Of a DNA stretch of 64,000 nt, positions 5,865 to 21,571 are shown one piece after another. Under the pieces are notes generated by a model that had not been told where the DNA came from, ran no database searches, and saw only the letters and a program-made list of their open reading frames with translations. Source of the DNA: an uncultured Alphaproteobacteria bacterium (GTDB taxonomy: Bacteria; Pseudomonadota; Alphaproteobacteria; Caulobacterales; Hyphomonadaceae); NCBI GenBank assembly GCA_903831255.1, contig CAIKWZ010000013.1:1-64000 (forward strand), in the 5' to 3' direction. The translations under genes and the position numbers were made by a program. Position 1 is the stretch's first letter. Each line of letters begins with the position of its first letter.

Positions 5865-7694
5865 TCAGCGGGTTGCGGGACGAAGGGAGAAGCGGTCGGG
5901 CATGCGGTCGGTGAAATCCGGGATCTGCGCCTTGCCTGTCTCATCCGAGACCTGCCTCTGCACCTGATCGAGGATGGTCACCGCATCGGGATCGGGCGCC
6001 TCGCGGATCGCTTTCGAGAGGGTGCGGGCGTAGATCCCGTTATCCTTCGCCTTTTCTCCAAAGCGCGTCGCATAGGCGATGATGTCGTCTGCGGTCGTGC
6101 GCCAGGCGATGGCGCTGAACCCGCGATCGCCGCCGCCTTCCATCTTCAGCACGTCGCGACAGGCGTCGAAGATAAACACCAGACGCTCAGCCCCCGCGCT
6201 CGCCAGACCTCCGACAACCGCATCCACCGACACGCCCTGGCTCTCGACCAGCGAGACATTCGCCTGACGCAGGCTGATCGGGAGAAGATAGGTCTGGCCT
6301 TTCGACGGGGTCGCCACACCGTGCCCCGCATAATAGAAGACCGCCGAGGCCTCCCCTCCTGCAGCGCGAGCCTGCTTCAGACGCTCGCGAAACGCGCTGA
6401 GCGCCTCGGACAAGCCGTCCGTGCCGAGATTTTCGCAATAGGTCACCGAGAAACCCGAGGCGGCGAGCGCCTGGCTCATCTCCTCCCCATCGCGTCGCGC
6501 GAAGGTCAGCGCAGGGATCCCTGCGCCCGTATAACTCTCATTGGCGATCACCAGAGCCAGACGCCCCGGCCCGCCCGTGGCGGGCGTGGGCGGGCGGCAG
6601 AGCCCGATCTCTCCGGCGAGGGGCGCTCCCCGAGGCGCGGCGGTCGCAGCCCCCGGAGCTGAAACCGCCGGAGAGGCCGTTCGGCTCGCCTGTTCGCTGC
6701 TAAGGAAGATCGCTTCAGGGGTGCGGACATCAATCACCCGCGGAAAGGTCCGCACGGTCTGGTCGATCCGGCGACCGTTGATCTCGACGGTCCTTGAGAA
6801 GGTGAGCACGAGGGGCAGATTTCCTGAGGCGCGGGGCCTGACCGACCACAGCCAGCGCGTGGTCTCGCCAGGCTCGACCGCCTGCTCGCCCTCGGAGAGC
6901 TCCTCGATTGCGAAATCCCCCCCTGTGAGGGAGGCCTTCATGAACGGATAGACTTTGAGATCGGCCATCGCGATCTCGGCCGGATCGCTCATCGACAGCG
7001 TTTCCATGATGTCGGCGGCAAGACGGGAATCGAGGATGGATTTCGCCTCTCCGGCCACGATCGAACCCACCGCCGCAGACAGGAAATAAGGCTGATCGCT
7101 CACCATGACCCGCGGTGCGTGCCAGGCCATCCGTCCGTTGAGCGCCACCGTCTTAGGCGGGAGAGTCTGAGGCGGCGCCATCGACGGCGGCGGAGTTGGA
7201 GGGCCCGGAGGCCTGACGCCGGCTGCGATCGGTTCGCTTATGTCCTTATCCGGTGAGGGGTCGGGAGACGGACGATCTTCGACATCGTCCTCGCGTGCCT
7301 CGATCGCCCGAATGGGCTCAGGGGCCGGTAAAGGCGCGCCATCCACGCTAAACCCGATCGCGCCGCCTACGCCCCGACCCAGATAACGACTGTCGCGCGC
7401 CCCCGCCATCTCCTCGGCGACAGCGGCCAGGCGAGCTGCATCCGCCTGATACGTCTCCGCGAGCGCGCCAGCGCCCGCCTCATCGACGGGGGCCTCGCCC
7501 GCACCCGGAGGATCGACCTCCATCATCTCTGACGGATCCATCTCCGCAGGCGCCTCCACCGATGCCCCGGAGTAAGGAGAACAGGCGAGCGCGAGACACG
7601 CCAAAGACAAGGTCAGCATCCAGACCGCCGCATGTCTAACGACCGAACGGACAGGAGGCCGGCCGACAGGGACCGTTGAACAGGCCATGGTCAT
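5865..7694 (-). CDS. Caspase-family lipoprotein with N-terminal beta-rich domain
   Basis: 609 aa. The signal peptide ends at a lipobox, LALAC (Cys38). Residues 45-180 are an acidic, Pro/Ala-rich linker. Residues about 185-330 form a beta-rich domain of the kind found before caspase or TIR effectors (motifs DLKVYPFMKASLTG, EGEQAVEPG, TRWLWSVRP). Residues about 372-605 are a C14 caspase domain: LALVIANESY, catalytic AGHG (His458) and FDACRD (Cys512), all intact. It is encoded opposite to the tandem caspase and trypsin genes and converges on them. Two M residues precede the hydrophobic core; the start at 7694 is the longest reading and translation from codon 3 is equally possible. As an outer-membrane or inner-membrane lipoprotein it would act in the periplasm, unlike defence-type cytosolic caspases. 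Confidence 0.85.
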   Translation of the reverse strand: MTMACSTVPVGRPPVRSVVRHAAVWMLTLSLACLALACSPYSGASVEAPAEMDPSEMMEVDPPGAGEAPVDEAGAGALAETYQADAARLAAVAEEMAGARDSRYLGRGVGGAIGFSVDGAPLPAPEPIRAIEAREDDVEDRPSPDPSPDKDISEPIAAGVRPPGPPTPPPSMAPPQTLPPKTVALNGRMAWHAPRVMVSDQPYFLSAAVGSIVAGEAKSILDSRLAADIMETLSMSDPAEIAMADLKVYPFMKASLTGGDFAIEELSEGEQAVEPGETTRWLWSVRPRASGNLPLVLTFSRTVEINGRRIDQTVRTFPRVIDVRTPEAIFLSSEQASRTASPAVSAPGAATAAPRGAPLAGEIGLCRPPTPATGGPGRLALVIANESYTGAGIPALTFARRDGEEMSQALAASGFSVTYCENLGTDGLSEALSAFRERLKQARAAGGEASAVFYYAGHGVATPSKGQTYLLPISLRQANVSLVESQGVSVDAVVGGLASAGAERLVFIFDACRDVLKMEGGGDRGFSAIAWRTTADDIIAYATRFGEKAKDNGIYARTLSKAIREAPDPDAVTILDQVQRQVSDETGKAQIPDFTDRMPDRFSLRPATR

Positions 7695-8408
7695 AATCAG
7701 GATCCCCGAAACCTAAGCCGGAGCAGTATCGCAGATGCAGGTGGACCGCCGCAACGCTGTTCGCCTTTGTCCTGGGACAAGCGCGGGACAGAGATCGCTC
7801 GGTGTCGCCTCGACATCGAGCGCCAACCGATCCTGCCCGAGCTTCAACGCAGCCACATCGCACGCTCTGAACAGTATCTGGCGCGTGGCCAAAGCAAACG
7901 GACAGCGCCAGCATAGCGCGCATGGGCCGCCGCCCTGACCGCGCGACGGCGCAGCGCATCCAGCATAGTATCGTCGAGATGACGGATCAGAATTTGGCCC
8001 GTCGACAGGCCGTAAAATCGGATTGATATCAATAAAATCACAGACATGGATGCGCCAGACGTCATCGATGCGGTCGATCGGCGTCTCGACGCGGAGGCGG
8101 GGACGAGGCAGGCGTCCTCGAGAATGAGGGCGCCGAACCGGGCGGGAAGCTCGCTGTCCGATGCATCCCGTGCTTTTAGCAGGCCATGGCGAGGTCCGCC
8201 GAAGCTCGCCGACGCCGGGGAGCGTGAGACGGCGTCTGGCCGCTCAATCTGCGGAACCGATAAGGATCATGGGGTCCTGAAGCAGGGCTTTGAGACTTTC
8301 CGAACGGAAGCCTCCGCCAACCCGGGCCCGCGCCCGGATAACCTCTTGCAGAGGAGCGAATTTGACCCATATCAAAAGTCTTTGGACGTCGAGGACGCGG
8401 GGACGAAC
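7695..8408. other. Intergenic region with a perfect 12-bp palindrome
   Basis: The 714 bases separate the divergent caspase lipoprotein and AbgT genes. A reading frame extends upstream of the AbgT start, but its translation is low-complexity and unlike transporter sequence, so I see no gene here. The one clear structure is ATTGATATCAAT at 8022-8033, a perfect palindrome in an AT-rich patch (flanked by AAAATC on both sides). It could be a repressor or FNR-like operator (TTGAT and ATCAA halves without the usual 4-base spacer). It lies 376 bases from the AbgT ATG. Confidence 0.4.
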
Positions 8409-9983
8409 ATGGCCGATGCTGCTGCCTCGAAGGGCATGCTGGGGTGGATCGAGCGAACCGGCAATCGCCTGCCCGATCCAGTCTTCATCTTTTTCGGACT
8501 GATATTAGCCCTCATCGCCATCAGCGCCGCGGCCGCGGCCCTCGGATATTCCGCGCCTCACCCAAGCGAAGTCGGGGAAAACGGCGAACCTGTCATGGTG
8601 ACCGCCGCCAGCCTGCTGTCTGCGGAGAACATCCGCCGTCTGTGGGTCGAGATGCCTCAGACCTTCACCCATTTTCATCCTCTGGGATATGTCCTCGTGG
8701 TCATGCTCGGCGCCGGCGTCGCCGAGCGCTCGGGCCTCTTCGCCAGCGCCATGCGCTCAGGGGTGCGCGGTGCGCCGAAGTTTCTCCTGACCCCCGTCGT
8801 CGCCTTCGTGGCGATGATGGGCAATCTGGCGGCGGACGCCGCCTATGTCGTTCTCATCCCCCTGTCCGCTGTTCTGTTCGCCGCGGCGGGACGTCACCCA
8901 ATCGCCGGCATCGCCGCTTCCTTCGCCGGCGTCTCGGGCGGATTTTCGGCAAACCTCCTGCCCGGCCAGCTCGATGCGCTCCTGTTCGGGATCACTGAAG
9001 CGGCCGCCGAGCAGGTCGCTCCCGGCTGGAACGCCAACATTGCCGGCAACTGGTTCTTCATCGCCGCCATGCTGGTCGTCTTCCTGCCCGTGATCTGGGC
9101 GGTCACCGACCTCATCGTCGAACCGCGGCTCAAGCGGTTTACCCCGCCGGACGGCGGGGCCGCGGCCACTCTCGGAGGGATCGACGCCCCGCTGTCAAAA
9201 GACGAAGCGCGGGGCCTTGGCGCCGCCGGCCTCGCCTTGCTTCTTGTCTGCGGGCTCTGGGCCTTCTTTGTGTTCGGGCCCGGAACGCCCCTCGTGGATG
9301 AAGAGGCGGCCTCGGCGCCCGCGCGTCTCACGCCCTTCTATCAATCCCTGGTCGGAGGATTTTTCCTCCTCTTCCTCGCCGCCGGCTGGGCCTACGGGGC
9401 GGCCGCCGGAACCGTGAAAAGCCATCGCGACATCGTTCGCATGATGGCCGAGGCGATGGGCGATCTCAGCTACTATCTCATCCTCGCCTTCGCCGCCGCG
9501 CACTTCGTGGCGATGTTCAACTGGTCCAATCTCGGCCTCATCTTCGCCGTGCAGGGCGCCGAGGCGATCGAGCGATCCGGGCTGCCCATGCCCGTCCTCC
9601 TGTCGCTGATCGTCGTGTTCACCGCCTCAATCAACATCTTCATCGGCTCGGCGAGCGCCAAGTGGGCCCTCATCGCGCCGGTCCTTGTACCGATGATGAT
9701 GCTGCTTGGGATCAGTCCGGAGATGACGACCGCCGCCTATCGGGTCGGCGACGGGGTGACCAACATCATCTCCCCGCTGATGGTCTATTTCCCGCTGGTT
9801 CTGACCTTCGCCCAGCGCTGGCGGACGGATTTCGGCCTGGGGAGCCTCACGGCTCTGATGCTGCCCTATTCGATCTGGTTGCTCATCATCGGGCTCTGCC
9901 TCACCTTCGGATGGGTCTATCTCGACCTTCCGCTCGGTCCCGACGCCGGGGTGGGCTTCAGCCTGCCCCCGGAGGGCGGCTGA
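8409..9983 (+). CDS. AbgT-family transporter
   Basis: 524 aa, close to the about 510 aa of E. coli AbgT. I chose the ATG at 8409 because family similarity begins directly there (GWIERTGNRLPDPVFIFF is the standard AbgT opening) and the upstream extension is not protein-like. A large number of hydrophobic segments follow, with conserved features such as GNLAADAAYVVLIPL, SGGFSANLLPG and, near the C-terminus, GSASAKWALIAPVLVPM and RVGDGVTNIISP. Known members import p-aminobenzoyl-glutamate or export sulfonamides and p-aminobenzoate. Which applies here cannot be decided from sequence. The gene is monocistronic by layout, with a hairpin after its stop. Confidence 0.92.
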   Translation: MADAAASKGMLGWIERTGNRLPDPVFIFFGLILALIAISAAAAALGYSAPHPSEVGENGEPVMVTAASLLSAENIRRLWVEMPQTFTHFHPLGYVLVVMLGAGVAERSGLFASAMRSGVRGAPKFLLTPVVAFVAMMGNLAADAAYVVLIPLSAVLFAAAGRHPIAGIAASFAGVSGGFSANLLPGQLDALLFGITEAAAEQVAPGWNANIAGNWFFIAAMLVVFLPVIWAVTDLIVEPRLKRFTPPDGGAAATLGGIDAPLSKDEARGLGAAGLALLLVCGLWAFFVFGPGTPLVDEEAASAPARLTPFYQSLVGGFFLLFLAAGWAYGAAAGTVKSHRDIVRMMAEAMGDLSYYLILAFAAAHFVAMFNWSNLGLIFAVQGAEAIERSGLPMPVLLSLIVVFTASINIFIGSASAKWALIAPVLVPMMMLLGISPEMTTAAYRVGDGVTNIISPLMVYFPLVLTFAQRWRTDFGLGSLTALMLPYSIWLLIIGLCLTFGWVYLDLPLGPDAGVGFSLPPEGG

Positions 9984-13627: not shown

Positions 13628-14716
13628 TCACCGGATCATCCGGCGATCCAGCTCGTCCGAGCCCGCCGGCAGGGACAGACGCATGCCGTCCTCACCCACC
13701 ACGATCGGCCCGTCGAAGATCTTTCCGGCATCGCCGAGGAAGAGCGGATAGAGCAAGGCGACCGGAAGAGGGGGAACAATATGATAGAACACCAGCGCTC
13801 CTGCGCCCGCCTCCTTCGCCGCACGGGCGGCGTCCTCAGGCGTTGCGTGGTAGTTCTGAATATCCGTGAGGACCGTCGAGAGGTTCGCCTGACCGCTTGA
13901 GGCGGCCGCTGCCGCCATGTCCTTCACCATGGCCGGCGCCAGCGCCTCATGGAGGAGAACATCCGTCCCCTTCGCCTCCCGGACCAGAACGGGCGAATAA
14001 ATCGTATCCCCGCTGAGGACGACCGAGCGGCCGCCATACTCGATCCGATAGCCATAGGCCGGCTCGATCGGACCATGATTGACGCGCACCGCCGTGATCC
14101 GGACGCCTCCGTCGTCGAGCACCACGATCGCCTCTCCTGCGGGTCCTATCGGCGCCTGGATCGGTGTGGCCACCCCTCCAAAGCCTGCGGGATTGGCGAC
14201 GGCGGCGCCGTGATGGGCCGTGCGGTACCCGCTGTCGATGCGATAGGCCGCGTTGAAACCCGCCACCACCTCCTCGACGCCGACAGGCCCGGAAATCGGA
14301 AGAGGGCTCGATCGGCTCCCGCCCACCCAGGCCTGAAGGAGGATTTCGCCCAGACCGTCGAAATGATCGGAATGAAGATGCGAGAGATAGACCCGTTCCA
14401 GTTGTCCCACCGGGAAGCCCATCCGGGCCAGGCGCCGAGCTCCGCCCGATCCGATGTCGAACAGAAAGGCTCGCTTGCCCGCCAGAACGCCCACGCAGGG
14501 CCCCGCACGCTGGGGATCGGGCATCGGCGATCCGGTTCCGCACAGATAGACATGAAGACCGTCCGCAAGATCCGCGGTCCGATCCCGGCCGATCGTGTCG
14601 GCGACCACGCTTCGGAAGACGCGCTCCGCCAGGGGCTTGCGAAGTGTGTAGGCGGCCGCCCCCAGAGCGATCGCCAGAACCGCAATGACGCCCAGAGCGA
14701 TGCGCAGCGCCTTCAT
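13628..14716 (-). CDS. Membrane-anchored MBL-fold metallo-hydrolase
   Basis: 362 aa. Residues 5-24 are a single hydrophobic anchor or uncleaved signal. The metallo-beta-lactamase domain follows with YLCGTGSPMPD (RNase Z/arylsulfatase-like opening), the metal motif SHLHSDHFDGL (His113, His115, Asp117, His118), a later HHGAA and SGDT, and the final FYHIVPP. These features match periplasmic MBL hydrolases of the arylsulfatase/phosphodiesterase type. The substrate cannot be read. The ATG overlaps the stop of the upstream DsbA-fold gene (14713-14716), so the two are translationally coupled and probably act in the same process. Confidence 0.8.
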   Translation of the reverse strand: MKALRIALGVIAVLAIALGAAAYTLRKPLAERVFRSVVADTIGRDRTADLADGLHVYLCGTGSPMPDPQRAGPCVGVLAGKRAFLFDIGSGGARRLARMGFPVGQLERVYLSHLHSDHFDGLGEILLQAWVGGSRSSPLPISGPVGVEEVVAGFNAAYRIDSGYRTAHHGAAVANPAGFGGVATPIQAPIGPAGEAIVVLDDGGVRITAVRVNHGPIEPAYGYRIEYGGRSVVLSGDTIYSPVLVREAKGTDVLLHEALAPAMVKDMAAAAASSGQANLSTVLTDIQNYHATPEDAARAAKEAGAGALVFYHIVPPLPVALLYPLFLGDAGKIFDGPIVVGEDGMRLSLPAGSDELDRRMIR

Positions 14717-16056
14717 GTCTCTCTCTCCGCTTTCAATTCAGCCATTGCGTTCCCATCCGCCGAAGGCTCAAAACCCCGACCGGCGTTGAGCGCATCCTGC
14801 ATCACCCAGAGGCGGTCCTGCCCCCACGCGAAGACAGACCCAACCCGAAACGAAGGCACCCCCCACAGACCGAGCCCGAGCATCTCCGTGCGATTGACCT
14901 CAGCCGTGCGGCGCCAGGCGTCATCCGCGAGATGACCCTGCGCCTCGCGCCAGTCCAGGCCTGAGGCGGCGACAATCCGCTTCAGTCCGGCGTCTTCGCC
15001 CGCATCAATACCCTCGGCCCAGACGCCGCGCATGAACGCCTCGGCGAACTCAAACCCCCGTCCCCGGGAAATCGCCCAGTGCAAGAGGGCGTAGCCCCGC
15101 TCGACGGGCCGGCCGACCGGATCGACAATACGCCCGAAGGGAATGCGCAGACGCCGCGCCTCGCGCGCCGCGTCCAGCGCGATATAGCGCCCCTTGGAGG
15201 CGGGAACCGGCAGACCGCGCATCACCATGGGCAGAACAAACCGCAATCTCAGCTCGGCCCGCGCTCCATCCGCCAGAGCCTTCGCCCGCTTCAGGGCCAG
15301 ATAGGTGTAGGGACTGCGGAAGGACAGATAGATGTGCAGGACCTGACCCGACGGAGCGGCCCCGACCTCCGGGGTCGCGGGCTGATCGTAGATCAGGGCA
15401 GCCGGCGCCTGGGGGCGGCGGCGTCCGAGGTCCGCCAGGCGCTGCTCAAGATAACCCAGACGATCAACGCCCCAATACCACTCGCCCTCATAGTGAAACA
15501 TGCCGCCCAGATAGTGCCCGAGACGCGCCCGCAGCGCGTCGCCCTTCGCGAGCCATGTCGATGCATCCGACCCTGAGGCTTCCTCCCGTCCTCCCTCTCC
15601 CCGCCACAGATCAAGGGAAAGGGAACCCGCGCGTTCCACAAAGGCGAGCGGATCAGGATGCGCCAGGAGCGCCGCCAGGGAGCGCTGCTGCCGGATGATC
15701 CGTTCTGGCGCCGGATCCTGCCCAGGATCCGAAAACCGCAGGCCGGCCCTCGCCGCAAGGCGAAACGCGTCAAGCCGGGACCAGGACCTCAAACGCTCAG
15801 CGTCCGGCGCCGCGCCCGCCGCAGGAGGGCTGACAAGATGACAGCGCAGGAGAATATCGTAACGCTCGAGAAGCGTTGGCAGACACTGCGCCGCCAGACA
15901 GGAATAAGGGTCGTCCGCCTGGTGAAAGTAATCCACCTGATGGGGCCGCCCCTGCCTGCTGCGGCGACGCTCCGAGGCGGCGCGCCGTCGGCCCTGAGAC
16001 GCGCCGTCGAGGACGGTCGCAATGATCCTCGAGAGCACAAGCGACTTCAGCGACAT
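14713..16056 (-). CDS. Tandem DsbA/thioredoxin-fold protein (2-hydroxychromene-2-carboxylate isomerase-like)
   Basis: 447 aa. The ATG at 16056 has AAGGAG 10 bases upstream; an ATG at 16107 without one is rejected. The protein repeats the same fold twice: first copy opens VDYFHQADDPYSCLAAQ (about residues 42-58), second opens HIYLSFRSPYTYLALKRAK (about 240-260). Both have D/S-P-Y in place of the CxxC redox pair, as in HCCA isomerase and kappa-class glutathione transferases. The second copy also has WGVPSFRVG, the cis-Pro loop of this family. A glutathione-dependent or thiol-dependent isomerase or reductase is likely, but the doubled architecture is uncommon. It is coupled to the MBL hydrolase gene downstream. 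Confidence 0.75.
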   Translation of the reverse strand: MSLKSLVLSRIIATVLDGASQGRRRAASERRRSRQGRPHQVDYFHQADDPYSCLAAQCLPTLLERYDILLRCHLVSPPAAGAAPDAERLRSWSRLDAFRLAARAGLRFSDPGQDPAPERIIRQQRSLAALLAHPDPLAFVERAGSLSLDLWRGEGGREEASGSDASTWLAKGDALRARLGHYLGGMFHYEGEWYWGVDRLGYLEQRLADLGRRRPQAPAALIYDQPATPEVGAAPSGQVLHIYLSFRSPYTYLALKRAKALADGARAELRLRFVLPMVMRGLPVPASKGRYIALDAAREARRLRIPFGRIVDPVGRPVERGYALLHWAISRGRGFEFAEAFMRGVWAEGIDAGEDAGLKRIVAASGLDWREAQGHLADDAWRRTAEVNRTEMLGLGLWGVPSFRVGSVFAWGQDRLWVMQDALNAGRGFEPSADGNAMAELKAERET

Positions 16057-16076
16057 CAGCGTGCAGCTCCTTAGGC

Positions 16077-16361
16077 TCAGGATCCGTTGTTCAGCTTCAG
16101 AAGGCACGCGCCGGCCGCCTCAGCACGCGCCTCAGCGCCCTCTCGCGGCAGCTTCCCCGACATCACAAGCCCGCGGGTCTTCGCCCGAATGACCCCGGCA
16201 GGCTTCTCACCGGGTTTTACCTCAGGGGCGGCCGCCTCATAGATGAGCCGGCTCTCCGCAGAGAGCGCATCAGCGCACGCCCTGGCCTCAGCCGGTCCCG
16301 CCAGCGCCTGACCACCCGAAAAAGCCGCAAGACCGAGGAAGGCCGCGATCATCACACGCAT
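16077..16361 (-). CDS. Small exported protein, conserved hypothetical
   Basis: 94 aa with a clear signal peptide: hydrophobic core from residue 4, then ALA-G as cleavage site near residue 22. The mature part is about 70 residues with two cysteines (29 and 86 approx.) that could form one disulfide, and a central KTRGLVMSGKLPREGA. Similar short proteins occur across alphaproteobacteria without assigned function. It precedes the DsbA-fold gene by 20 bases on the same strand and may share its transcript. Upstream bases 16362-16533 hold its promoter region and no other gene. Confidence 0.7.
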   Translation of the reverse strand: MRVMIAAFLGLAAFSGGQALAGPAEARACADALSAESRLIYEAAAPEVKPGEKPAGVIRAKTRGLVMSGKLPREGAEARAEAAGACLLKLNNGS

Positions 16362-18478: not shown

Positions 18479-18940
18479 TCACTCCTCGACCCTTGCGCCC
18501 ATGACAGCCAGAGCGCAGCGATCGTTCGCGCACTCCTTCATGACGACCTCCAGGATGAACGCACCGTCCTCCTTCGGAACGACCTCCACCGCCGGAGCCG
18601 CGTCGGCAAACCGATCCCACTGAACGTCGACACCGTCCGGACCCCGAACCGTCATGTCGATATCGGAGCATGCCTCATCGCAAACGGCTGCGAATTGGTA
18701 TATCTGCCCCTTCTCTAAAGTGATCTCTGTGGCTCCCGCTTCGCCAGCCGAGAGCAATCCGGTCGTGATTTCGTACGCGATGTCATTGGCTTCAGCTATC
18801 TGAACATACTCAGACAGCTTTTGTTCAAGCTGACGGATCTGATCCTCGTTCAGATCACCGGAAGACGGCTCCTGCGCGCCAGCGAGCCCCCCGAACACAC
18901 ACAAACCCAGAGGAACAATCCACCGAAGCGCGCGCACCAT
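18479..18940 (-). CDS. Exported four-cysteine protein, tandem paralog 1
   Basis: 153 aa, start ATG 18940 with GGAGG upstream. Signal peptide with cleavage after GAQ near residue 23. The mature protein has a Glu/Gln-rich helix (residues 30-55), then the family core: GLLSAGE, YQFAAVCDEACSDIDMTV and, near the end, ECANDRCALAV. Cysteines are at 87, 91, 137 and 142 (C-x3-C and C-x4-C), suiting two disulfides. The DID next to the second Cys and the strand pattern resemble PPC-type beta sandwiches, which suggests a metal- or ligand-binding domain; this is inference. Three paralogs follow upstream in the same orientation. Function unknown. Confidence 0.75.
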   Translation of the reverse strand: MVRALRWIVPLGLCVFGGLAGAQEPSSGDLNEDQIRQLEQKLSEYVQIAEANDIAYEITTGLLSAGEAGATEITLEKGQIYQFAAVCDEACSDIDMTVRGPDGVDVQWDRFADAAPAVEVVPKEDGAFILEVVMKECANDRCALAVMGARVEE

Positions 18941-19000
18941 GATCGCATCATCCCTCCAATAGGCGCCCGAGGGTTCGGAGCCGCCTTCTCGGCAATCCTG

Positions 19001-19029
19001 ATCATGGCAGGCGCTTTTGTCACTCGGAA
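19001..19029 (-). promoter_or_regulatory. Putative promoter of paralog 1 (shared architecture)
   Basis: On the minus strand TTCCGA (19029-19024) precedes CATGAT (19006-19001) by 17 bases. CATGATCA here begins the same element found at the same distance from the start codon in paralogs 2 and 3: the TGATCA palindrome lies at 18999-19004, 59 bases before the ATG. The -10-like hexamer matches the consensus at 4/6. Confidence 0.45.
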
Positions 19030-19196
19030 TGACGAACCCGACCTGCAGTATCACCGCTGATCGTCCCAACGCTTACTTCGGTCAATGCAACGCCTCCCGG
19101 GCGATCGGTCGTCATGCATTCCAGCCTGAACTGAGGGGTCCGTTCTTAAACTCTCCTCGCCTGCGAGCGCCTCAGCGGTCGGCCCCACACCCTCAG

Positions 19197-19211
19197 AGGC
19201 TGACGCAGCCT
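19197..19211 (-). terminator. Hairpin downstream of paralog 2
   Basis: AGGCTG (19197-19202) and CAGCCT (19206-19211) form a perfect 6-bp stem with a 3-base loop, 16 bases past the stop of paralog 2. No T-run follows on the minus strand, so this is a weak terminator or 3'-end structure at best. Confidence 0.3.
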
Positions 19212-19226
19212 GCCCCGGAGGCTCGA

Positions 19227-19688
19227 TCACTCACGCGGCTGGGCGATGACGAGCGCCAGCGCACAGGGATTGCTCTCGCACTCCGCCATAAATACCTGGA
19301 CGGTGTAAACGCCGTCCGCCTCAGGAAACACATTCACCGCCGGAACATCGTCATTCGAGAGATCCTCCTCCACGATCCCACCGCCCGGATCCGACACCGA
19401 GATATCGATGTCGGAACACGAATCGTCGCAGACCCCCATAATGGCGTAGCCGCGCCCCTTCCGCAGTGTCACGTCCATCGAGCCCGTTTCGTCCGATGAG
19501 AGAAGCCCGACCATTGTTTCGTAGCCCAGTCCCTCGGCATCGATCTTTTCAATAATCTCAGCCGCTTCTCTCGTGATAGCTGCAATCTGAGCATCGCTAA
19601 GACCCAACTCGGACGTCTCCTGGGCTGAGACGTAGCCCGCGGACAGACACAGACTGAGCACGACAAGAACCCGAACCAGCCGAAGCAT
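19227..19688 (-). CDS. Exported four-cysteine protein, tandem paralog 2
   Basis: 153 aa, start ATG 19688 with GGAGG four bases upstream. Signal peptide ends SAQ near residue 23. The mature protein aligns without gaps to paralog 1 through the core: GLLSSDETGSMDVTL, MGVCDDSCSDIDISV and MAECESNPCALAL. Cysteines are at 87, 91, 137 and 142, identical to paralog 1. Mature protein is acidic. The long 461-base gap to the next paralog (19689-20149) carries a promoter near this gene and otherwise no supported gene. Confidence 0.75.
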   Translation of the reverse strand: MLRLVRVLVVLSLCLSAGYVSAQETSELGLSDAQIAAITREAAEIIEKIDAEGLGYETMVGLLSSDETGSMDVTLRKGRGYAIMGVCDDSCSDIDISVSDPGGGIVEEDLSNDDVPAVNVFPEADGVYTVQVFMAECESNPCALALVIAQPRE

Positions 19689-19748
19689 GAGACCTCCATC
19701 CATCAGGATGTCGCTCTGCAATCGAACGCAACCTGTCCGCCCCTATTG

Positions 19749-19778
19749 ATCATGACCGTCGGGAATTCGTCATTCGAA
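19749..19778 (-). promoter_or_regulatory. Putative promoter of paralog 2 (shared architecture)
   Basis: Minus-strand TTCGAA (19778-19773), 18-base spacer, CATGAT (19754-19749). The TGATCA palindrome at 19747-19752 lies 59 bases before the ATG at 19688, exactly as in paralogs 1 and 3. Between this element and the gene, the stretch GGGCGGACAGGT and the later GATGGATGGAG are also shared with paralog 3. Confidence 0.45.
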
Positions 19779-20149
19779 AAGTTGAGAGCGCGCTGCAGGT
19801 CGCGAGCGGAAGTCAATGTCGGGGACTTATCGCGACGGACGCATTTGAGAGACCTGAAGCAGGACGGTCAGGAGAACGAGAGGCGTCCGAGCCCATCCCA
19901 TGTCTCCTCCCAATGGCTCCACGAACCCGCCTCTGCCCTTTGACGATCCGGACGAAGAGGCCCCTATTTCGGGAAAGCGTTGACATAGGCCTGCCTATCT
20001 GGGGCCAGGTCTCGCTCTCTCCGATGACTTCCCCTCATCCGATCGCGGCGTTCGGAAACGCAACACCCGAGACATCCCCTCAGCGGGAGAGCCCGCAAGC
20101 GACCCGCCGAAGCGGTCAGACCTCAACCGGAGTGCCCTCTGACGACGGC

Positions 20150-20614
20150 TCATTCCTCCGATGCAAAAACGAGGATGGCTACAGCGCAGGGATCCTCTGC
20201 GCAGTCCGCCATGTCCACTTCAATGGTGAACTCGCCGTCCATCTCGGAAAAAATGGCCACAACCGGCATGTCGTCGGTTTCCATGTCCGCATCGAGGACG
20301 TCCCCGGCCGGATCGTAGACGGTGAAATCTATGTCGGAGCAGGCATCGTCGCAGATACCCACAATGGCGTATTCGCGCCCCCCCTCAAGACTGATGTCCA
20401 TCGTCCCGGTTTCGCCGGATGACAGAAGTCCGCCCATCGAGTCATAGACCTCCGCCCCGTCGGCTTCGGCCATCTCCTGAAGCTCCTCTATCTGACGTTC
20501 GAGCGCGCGGATCTGCTCACTGCTCAGGTCGGTCGCCGGCGCCTCCTGGGCTGATGCGTAACCTGCTGTGAGACAGAAACTCAGCGCGACAAGAACACGA
20601 CCTGCCCGAACCAT
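20150..20614 (-). CDS. Exported four-cysteine protein, tandem paralog 3
   Basis: 154 aa, start ATG 20614 with GGAG upstream. The signal peptide is nearly identical to that of paralog 2 (RVLVALSFCLTAGYASAQ). Core: GLLSSGETGTMDISL, VGICDDACSDIDFTV, MADCAEDPCAVAI, with cysteines at 88, 92, 138 and 143 (same spacing as paralogs 1 and 2). The signal, core and promoter similarity to paralog 2 suggest this is the most recent duplication pair. Exported, function unknown; mature protein strongly acidic (many Glu/Asp). Confidence 0.75.
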   Translation of the reverse strand: MVRAGRVLVALSFCLTAGYASAQEAPATDLSSEQIRALERQIEELQEMAEADGAEVYDSMGGLLSSGETGTMDISLEGGREYAIVGICDDACSDIDFTVYDPAGDVLDADMETDDMPVVAIFSEMDGEFTIEVDMADCAEDPCAVAILVFASEE

Positions 20615-20674
20615 GACCGCTCCATCCATCAAGGCGACACTCGGAGATCGGGCGCGACCTGTCCGCCCATACTG

Positions 20675-20703
20675 ATCATGTCGAGGCGCCTGTCGTCACG
20701 CAA
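20675..20703 (-). promoter_or_regulatory. Putative promoter of paralog 3 (shared architecture)
   Basis: Minus-strand TTGCGT (20703-20698), 17-base spacer, CATGAT (20680-20675); TGATCA at 20673-20678 is 59 bases upstream of the ATG. This is the best -35 of the three shared promoters. Confidence 0.5.
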
Positions 20704-20802
20704 AATTCCCACCCCCTGCTGATGGTCTTCGCCAGAGGCAGGCCTCAACGTGATCTCGATCCGGGCGAACAGCGACCAATCCCTCCCAAGGACAAAGACG
20801 CC

Positions 20803-21285
20803 TCACGACCCTTCCACCAGCAGGACGACCGCAACCGCGCATCTCTCAAAAGCGCATCGACGCATATCCACATGCAGCAGCCTTGTTGCGCTGTGAGGGG
20901 AGGTGACGATGGCGATCGGCATGCTGTCCTCAATGGCCTCAATCTCCACGCCCTCGATGCGATAGCCGTCGCTATCCGACACCTCGAAGTCGATCTCAAA
21001 ACAGCCAAAGTCGCACACGCCCGCAAGGGCGTACGTCCGGCCTGCTTCCACACTGAACTCAAGGACGCCTCTCTCGTCCTCGGGAAGGGTGAGGACAAGC
21101 GGTCCGTCGAGAAACTCGAACGGCGCGTCCGCCAGCACCTCCATCAGGTTCGTCAGCCGTTCATCCAGAGCCTCGGCCTGCTCTGGGGTGAGGTCATCCT
21201 CCGCCGCCGGCGGCGCCTGCGCCGAGGCGCCCAACGCCAACACGCAGACCGCTCCAAGAAGGGCGGCCAGACAGTAGCGGACCAT
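20803..21285 (-). CDS. Exported four-cysteine protein, divergent tandem paralog 4
   Basis: 160 aa, start ATG 21285 with GGGAGA upstream. Signal peptide ends SAQ near residue 23. The family core is preserved in divergent form: LEFSVEAGRTYALAGVCDFG then CFEIDFEV, and MRRCAFERCAVAV at the end. Cysteines at 91, 95, 144 and 149 keep C-x3-C and C-x4-C with a slightly longer interval between pairs. It lacks the shared TGATCA promoter and follows the 67-aa gene by 82 bases, so it may be read from the DUF1499 transcript. Function unknown. Confidence 0.72.
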   Translation of the reverse strand: MVRYCLAALLGAVCVLALGASAQAPPAAEDDLTPEQAEALDERLTNLMEVLADAPFEFLDGPLVLTLPEDERGVLEFSVEAGRTYALAGVCDFGCFEIDFEVSDSDGYRIEGVEIEAIEDSMPIAIVTSPHSATRLLHVDMRRCAFERCAVAVVLLVEGS

Positions 21286-21367: not shown

Positions 21368-21571
21368 TCAGCGGCGGGGCGCCTTCAGCGTCTCTTCATA
21401 AAGAGCCTGAACTTCATGGCGACGGATCGCCTTCTCAAGATCAGCCAGCGCCCGCTCGCGCAGCGAGTTTTCGAAATGCGCCGCCGTCTCCGCACGCAGC
21501 TCCTCATAGATCGCCGCCCGGGCGGCGGCGTCCGGAGATCCGGCCTCCGCCAGACGACGAAAAACCCGCAT
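21368..21571 (-). CDS. Small helical protein of unknown function
   Basis: 67 aa, no signal peptide, no cysteine. The sequence is almost wholly helix-prone and charged (AIYEELRAETAAHFENSLRE, then a KAIRRHEVQALYEE helix). It starts 14 bases after the DUF1499 stop on the same strand, which supports it as a real downstream gene, though its ribosome binding site is weak. Cytoplasmic. I do not recognise the family with confidence. Confidence 0.5.
   Translation of the reverse strand: MRVFRRLAEAGSPDAAARAAIYEELRAETAAHFENSLRERALADLEKAIRRHEVQALYEETLKAPRR

Follow-up and report, generated by a model that had tools for sequence, protein, structure and literature searches.

Four tandem exported proteins with a probable PPC-type fold in an alphaproteobacterium are related to a domain of TIR membrane proteins

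The first 64,000 nucleotides of contig CAIKWZ010000013.1 (assembly GCA_903831255.1), from an uncultured alphaproteobacterium of the family Hyphomonadaceae, were analysed and are referred to here as the window. They contain an array of four paralogous genes for small exported proteins between positions 18479 and 21285 of the minus strand. The reading favoured here, with somewhat better than even confidence, is that these are exported recognition or binding modules of the PPC type (PF04151), which are soluble in the window and are displayed by TIR membrane proteins in other genomes.

The array comprises paralog 1 (18479..18940; 153 residues), paralog 2 (19227..19688; 153 residues), paralog 3 (20150..20614; 154 residues) and paralog 4 (20803..21285; 160 residues), all on the minus strand. 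The start of paralog 1 was placed at the ATG at 18940 and not at an upstream TTG because of the alignment with the other paralogs. By eye, all four have signal-peptide ends of the A-x-A type directly before a Q (GASA-Q, YASA-Q, YVSA-Q and LAGA-Q), and the signal peptide takes up about residues 1-22 in paralogs 3 and 4. With one paralog as the query, the whole genome yielded precisely the other three (E-values 1e-32 to 3e-14), and thus their likeness is not a matter of chance. Paralog 4 is the most divergent member. Across the alignment, C88, D89, C92, I95, D96, C138, C143 and A144 (numbered as in the 154-residue protein) are invariant and form the motifs CDx2Cx2ID and Cx4CA; across the cysteines, the alignment of paralogs 1 and 2 is free of gaps. 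The first-pass annotation, made from the sequence alone, had described four same-strand exported paralogs of 153-160 residues with an invariant C-x3-C and C-x4-C pattern and with cysteines at identical positions in paralogs 1 and 2; alignment and genome search bear this description out.

Past residue 24, each paralog and each of the four orthologs from the sister species has exactly four cysteines. In paralog 3, the C-x3-C motif (C88-D-D-A-C92; 20339..20353, minus strand) is at the modelled turn that links strands 3 and 4, and the C-x4-C motif (C138 to C143; 20186..20203, minus strand) is at the one that links strands 6 and 7; the corresponding cysteines of paralog 4 are 91/95 and 144/149. Among the 65 family domains from the fetched loci, 64 keep all four cysteines and all 65 keep the C-x4-C pair. 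The sole exception (L101:5857-6384, genome G013) has alanine at the first and second cysteine positions (ADDDA) and retains the third and fourth. This joint loss favours pairing of the first cysteine with the second and of the third with the fourth, so that two local disulfides probably close two hairpin turns of the predicted fold. It is very unlikely that the four cysteines instead form a single metal site or a redox centre. Two close cysteine pairs at beta-turns do look zinc-ribbon-like on paper, but the proteins are exported, one relative has lost its first pair alone while retaining the second, and, if the strands alternate in direction, opposite ends of the sandwich would each hold one pair.

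Pfam and NCBIfam scans of the four proteins found no family and gave only noise (Endonuclea_NS_2, MerR and PsbQ), which agrees with the first-pass view that they are not a known enzyme. The same annotation had guessed a PPC-type beta-sandwich, and this guess is upheld by profile comparison and by structure models. Direct searches with PF04151, for which the curated Pfam cut-off is 25.9 bits, match neither the window proteins nor any other protein of their genome; the best family relative (L087) reaches 25.2 bits, and seven of 66 members match at E <= 0.1. When the 66 family domains were compared by hhalign with 30 PF04151 domains from related genomes, the probability was 95.7 (P 9.7e-9), with 77 columns in register, versus 0.1-0.5% for reversed and column-shuffled controls. 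With only the paralogs of the window and of the sister genome, the result was 89.5% (P 2e-6). Since these values are well above the controls, the family is a divergent relative of PPC domains.

AlphaFold2, supplied with eight sequences (the window and sister proteins), models paralog 3 as a helix (residues 32-51) followed by a seven-strand beta-sandwich (residues 54-152), with a predicted local distance difference test score (pLDDT) of 75.5; paralog 4 has the same fold with one extra short strand (pLDDT 79.5). In Foldseek searches, the top match of paralog 3 in the Protein Data Bank is Tk-SP (3afg, E 2.6e-5), and KP-43, SubHal, GOLD domains and the collagen-binding domain of ColH also match. 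For paralog 4 the matches are the same, but GOLD domains rank first and the E-values are weaker. A sequence search of solved structures gave nothing significant, with Tk-SP at E ~1, and matches in a viral structure library have high root-mean-square deviations and were considered uninformative. Together, profiles and models support a PPC-type jelly-roll beta-sandwich as the predicted fold of the window proteins.

The likeness to PPC domains extends to the order of the beta-sandwich, to the pattern L..G...Y...D.DL.v.D..G...D...P.v...p..G.y.i.v over the 77 columns, to the top structural matches and to export. In contrast to PPC domains, the window proteins stand alone, fall below the Pfam cut-off and have an extra N-terminal helix; all four are single-domain proteins and not the C-terminal part of a secreted peptidase. 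Additionally, the two conserved cysteine pairs are absent from the local PPC domains. A jelly-roll-like sandwich is also shared with the GOLD domains of p24/TMED cargo receptors and with clostridial collagen-binding domains (Foldseek 5azw, 7rrm and 3jqw), and GOLD domains are likewise luminal parts of single-pass membrane proteins. However, these domains are eukaryotic or clostridial, and the likeness is one of fold and not of sequence.

The structural matches also bear on whether the proteins could be periplasmic inhibitors of hostile enzymes, similar to lysozyme or protease inhibitors, with the array broadening the range of enzymes bound. PliG, a periplasmic inhibitor of g-type lysozyme, is likewise a small periplasmic beta-sandwich (4dzg, Foldseek E 1.4e-3 with paralog 3); small, exported, disulfide-bonded sandwiches suit such a role, and one family member weakly touches the Pfam family MliC (E 0.08). 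However, PliG ranks below the PPC and GOLD matches and falls to 1.8e-2 for paralog 4, there is no match in sequence, and no PliI, PliG or MliC family of Pfam or NCBIfam matches the window proteins at E-values up to 1. The fusions found in relatives and described below would also be unexpected for an inhibitor, which makes this explanation quite improbable.

Most relatives have the form of a stand-alone exported protein, as in the window. Double-domain relatives (L087 and L114) and a lipoprotein-like relative with a TonB_C end (L080) also occur. In 19 relatives, a TIR_2 domain (PF13676) is followed by a single hydrophobic or transmembrane helix and then by a domain of the array type; Pfam was run on three of these, one of which matches TIR_2 at E 8e-26, and the remainder were recognised by their TIR start motif. 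The first-pass impression of a family lacking recognisable connections is therefore not sustained, since TIR membrane proteins of relatives have its domain as their ectodomain. Summed over the 19 fusions, there are 43 lysines and arginines on the N-terminal side of the helix versus 5 on the C-terminal side, and this bias puts the TIR domain inside and the array-type domain outside. All 19 ectodomains have exactly four cysteines. A (W/S)-V-x-x-E motif is kept in all 19 at the place of the catalytic glutamate of bacterial TIR domains, and its glutamate is presumably the catalytic residue. Eighteen of the 19 fusions fall in one clade (98/88), alongside stand-alone copies of the same genomes that are 5-10 kb away. 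The remaining fusion (L116) is outside this clade on a long branch, and the fusion may therefore have arisen twice.

Cytoplasmic TIR domains of this kind resemble bacterial TIR_2 proteins, including the ThsB-like TIRs of Thoeris. In contrast to Thoeris, the window proteins have no TIR domain, and the fusions have no evident Thoeris partner nearby. At the one fusion locus scanned (L083), the neighbour is a TIR_2-DUF805 gene (7531-8523, minus strand), and the other genes are housekeeping ones (UvrD, PrmA, an M24 peptidase and a fumarase-type lyase); the other fusion loci share many of the gene clusters around this locus, and these clusters recur in numerous genomes of family f3. PADLOC models for ThsB and SAVED-TIR match only the TIR part of relatives, and the window protein tested matched no model of PADLOC-DB 2.0.0. 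A literature search, of incomplete coverage, found no paper that joins PPC with TIR or TIR with DUF805; the sole match for the first pair concerns plant NAC factors.

A second set of neighbours consists of caspase and CHAT genes. In the cyanobacterium Stanieria cyanosphaera PCC 7437, a DUF1822 piece, a small gene and a 1738-residue caspase-annotated nSTAND1-WD40 gene come after the family gene in this order, all on its strand. This neighbourhood resembles the caspase/CHAT conflict systems that include DUF1822; a 2021 survey in eLife reports that DUF1822 adjoins caspase systems and does not mention PPC (PMC8195603). Similarly, a distant relative (L161:1102-1764; E 6e-8; family f2), an exported PPC-like protein without the first cysteine pair, is encoded by a gene that ends directly before a CHAT-domain gene, and by eye two further loci (L153 and L162) are arranged alike, which makes several genomes of family f2. 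However, the likeness comprises one clear and one distant case, and no gene of this kind adjoins the window array. These neighbourhoods are leads and not proof.

PPC domains serve in binding and in stabilisation, and a binding role is proposed for the array-type domain partly on this basis. In clostridial collagenases the PPC domains act as collagen-binding domains, and a Grimontia collagenase has a C-terminal segment, its PPC domain included, that binds collagen (PMC6168687); the jelly-roll domain of Tk-SP binds two Ca2+ (PMC3599501). Under the proposed role, the products of the four genes would be single-domain proteins that are exported to the periplasm or secreted, each maturing to a short helix and a divergent PPC-type beta-sandwich with two disulfide-closed hairpin turns. 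They would act by binding and not by catalysis, as extracytoplasmic recognition modules, and the array would amount to a diversified set of soluble versions. In relatives, a single-pass protein that has its TIR domain in the cytoplasm presents the same domain on the outer side of the inner membrane, and most likely the sensing of a ligand or of an envelope change there clusters or activates the TIR.

The domain could instead be purely structural, with the proteins serving as stabilising envelope components or as matrix or adhesive proteins that have no part in signalling, the PPC-type fold stabilising or sticking, possibly with calcium. The PPC domains of peptidases do stabilise their protein and bind calcium (PMC3599501), and the conserved aspartates D89, D96 and D114 are in line with such a role. 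However, use as the sole outside domain of TIR proteins fits sensing better, and the cysteine motifs are not part of the ordinary PPC domains compared here, so that this alternative appears unlikely.

Several points weigh against the recognition-module reading. No conserved partner gene adjoins the array. TIR fusions of this kind are absent from the window's genome, whose only TIR_2 protein lacks an array-type domain. Additionally, the AlphaFold2 models were built on eight sequences, have pLDDT values of 75-80 and give query-normalised template modelling scores of 0.4-0.55. The four window proteins themselves have neither a TIR domain nor a transmembrane helix, and a TIR link, like any immune or cell-death context, is putative for them.

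The genome's only TIR_2 protein is encoded on the same contig, outside the window (C13:79117-79428, L156). It consists of a TIR domain, a hydrophobic stretch, a part resembling PG_binding_1 (just under the cut-off) and MORN repeats, and is probably a further example of a TIR protein in which one part faces the envelope.

By profile search, the family is present in about 20% of the genomes of the same order (82 of 398), spread over 15 of 59 genera; within the taxonomic family the count is 18 of 105 genomes. At the level of the class, two even samples of 385 genomes yielded the window's genome and one other of the order as the sole carriers, and a sample of 399 genomes of the phylum added two genomes from one other family of the class. 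A tblastn search of plasmids gave one match, the Stanieria protein (28% identity over 95%), which scores 119 bits against the family profile. No family member was found in a phage search, and viral contigs scanned with the Stanieria protein contained no relative. A Limoniibacter match (L006) was set aside as doubtful, as it covers residues 6-63 only. Thus, the first-pass description of an expanding lineage-specific family holds for the array, which occurs in two close genomes, and does not hold for the family, which extends across the order, to another family of the class and to Stanieria.

The second of these close genomes is the sister genome G014 (JAGWYJ010000010.1), the metagenome-assembled genome Alphaproteobacteria REEB488, in which the same array is present with synteny on both sides. 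In the tree, the four paralogs and the sister genes form one clade (98/90) that is confined to these two genomes, with paralog 4 as its earliest branch. Each paralog has its own one-to-one ortholog in the sister genome, and the duplications are therefore older than the split of the two genomes. The dN/dS ratios between them are 0.19, 0.43, 0.23 and 0.25 for paralogs 1 to 4, respectively, which indicates that all four genes are coding and constrained. Although constrained, paralogs 3 and 4 (dN 0.20 and 0.135) change faster than their neighbours, since dN is 0.015-0.054 in the flanking genes. Fast evolution is common in recognition proteins. Along the array, dS relative to the sister locus (L119) is 0.15, 0.15, 0.89 and 0.53 for paralogs 1 to 4, and 0.19-0.47 for flanking genes; recombination or gene conversion is a possible source of this unevenness.

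In an alignment of the window and sister genes, the regions upstream of paralogs 3, 2 and 1 are alike over about 80 bases. The region upstream of paralog 3 (20615..20700, minus strand) reads TGACGA ... CATGATCA ... GGACAGGTCGCG; that of paralog 2 (19689..19780, minus strand) matches it, and that of paralog 1 (18941..19030, minus strand) matches in a more diverged form. These stretches possibly hold a shared control region, and their likeness indicates that the genes were probably copied together with their control regions. No sigma-70-type promoter was found in the upstream region of paralog 3, and promoter and terminator predictions were at chance level. No Rfam family was found.

The array is flanked by genes for a choline-dehydrogenase-like GMC oxidoreductase and a DUF1499 membrane protein, and no partner enzyme is evident among the flanking genes, as the first-pass annotation had remarked. 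Between the DUF1499 gene and paralog 4 there is an open reading frame for 67 residues (21368-21571, minus strand; MRVFRRLAEAGSPD...), below the size limit of the open-reading-frame lists used, which has 92% identity in the sister genome (dN 0.046, dS 0.36) and encodes a small conserved protein with no evident signal peptide. Further away, a 464-residue protein (14713-16107, minus strand) has a C-terminal DSBA-family domain (PF01323, E 1.9e-15). It was considered as a disulfide partner and rejected, as by eye it looks like the HCCA-isomerase/kappa-GST type and not like a disulfide oxidoreductase.

Most bacterial TIR proteins that have been studied sense intracellular events. A more far-reaching and rather doubtful extension of the proposed role is that the window proteins are soluble kin of a receptor-like membrane form, made of a disulfide-stapled PPC-type ectodomain, one membrane span and a cytoplasmic, probably NAD-cleaving TIR domain. 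The stand-alone copies would then serve as ligand-capturing co-receptors or decoys for envelope sensing (of damage, of contact with phages or of the effectors of rivals) that is coupled to effectors of the cell-death type, such as TIR and caspase/CHAT proteins. Overall, the new point is the link between the array family and TIR membrane proteins, which provides a lead to function for a family that has no Pfam or NCBIfam model. If the proposed role is true, this would be a bacterial receptor-like architecture with a small and tractable ectodomain, in which one domain is used both by itself, in exported form, and as the external portion of a single-pass TIR protein.

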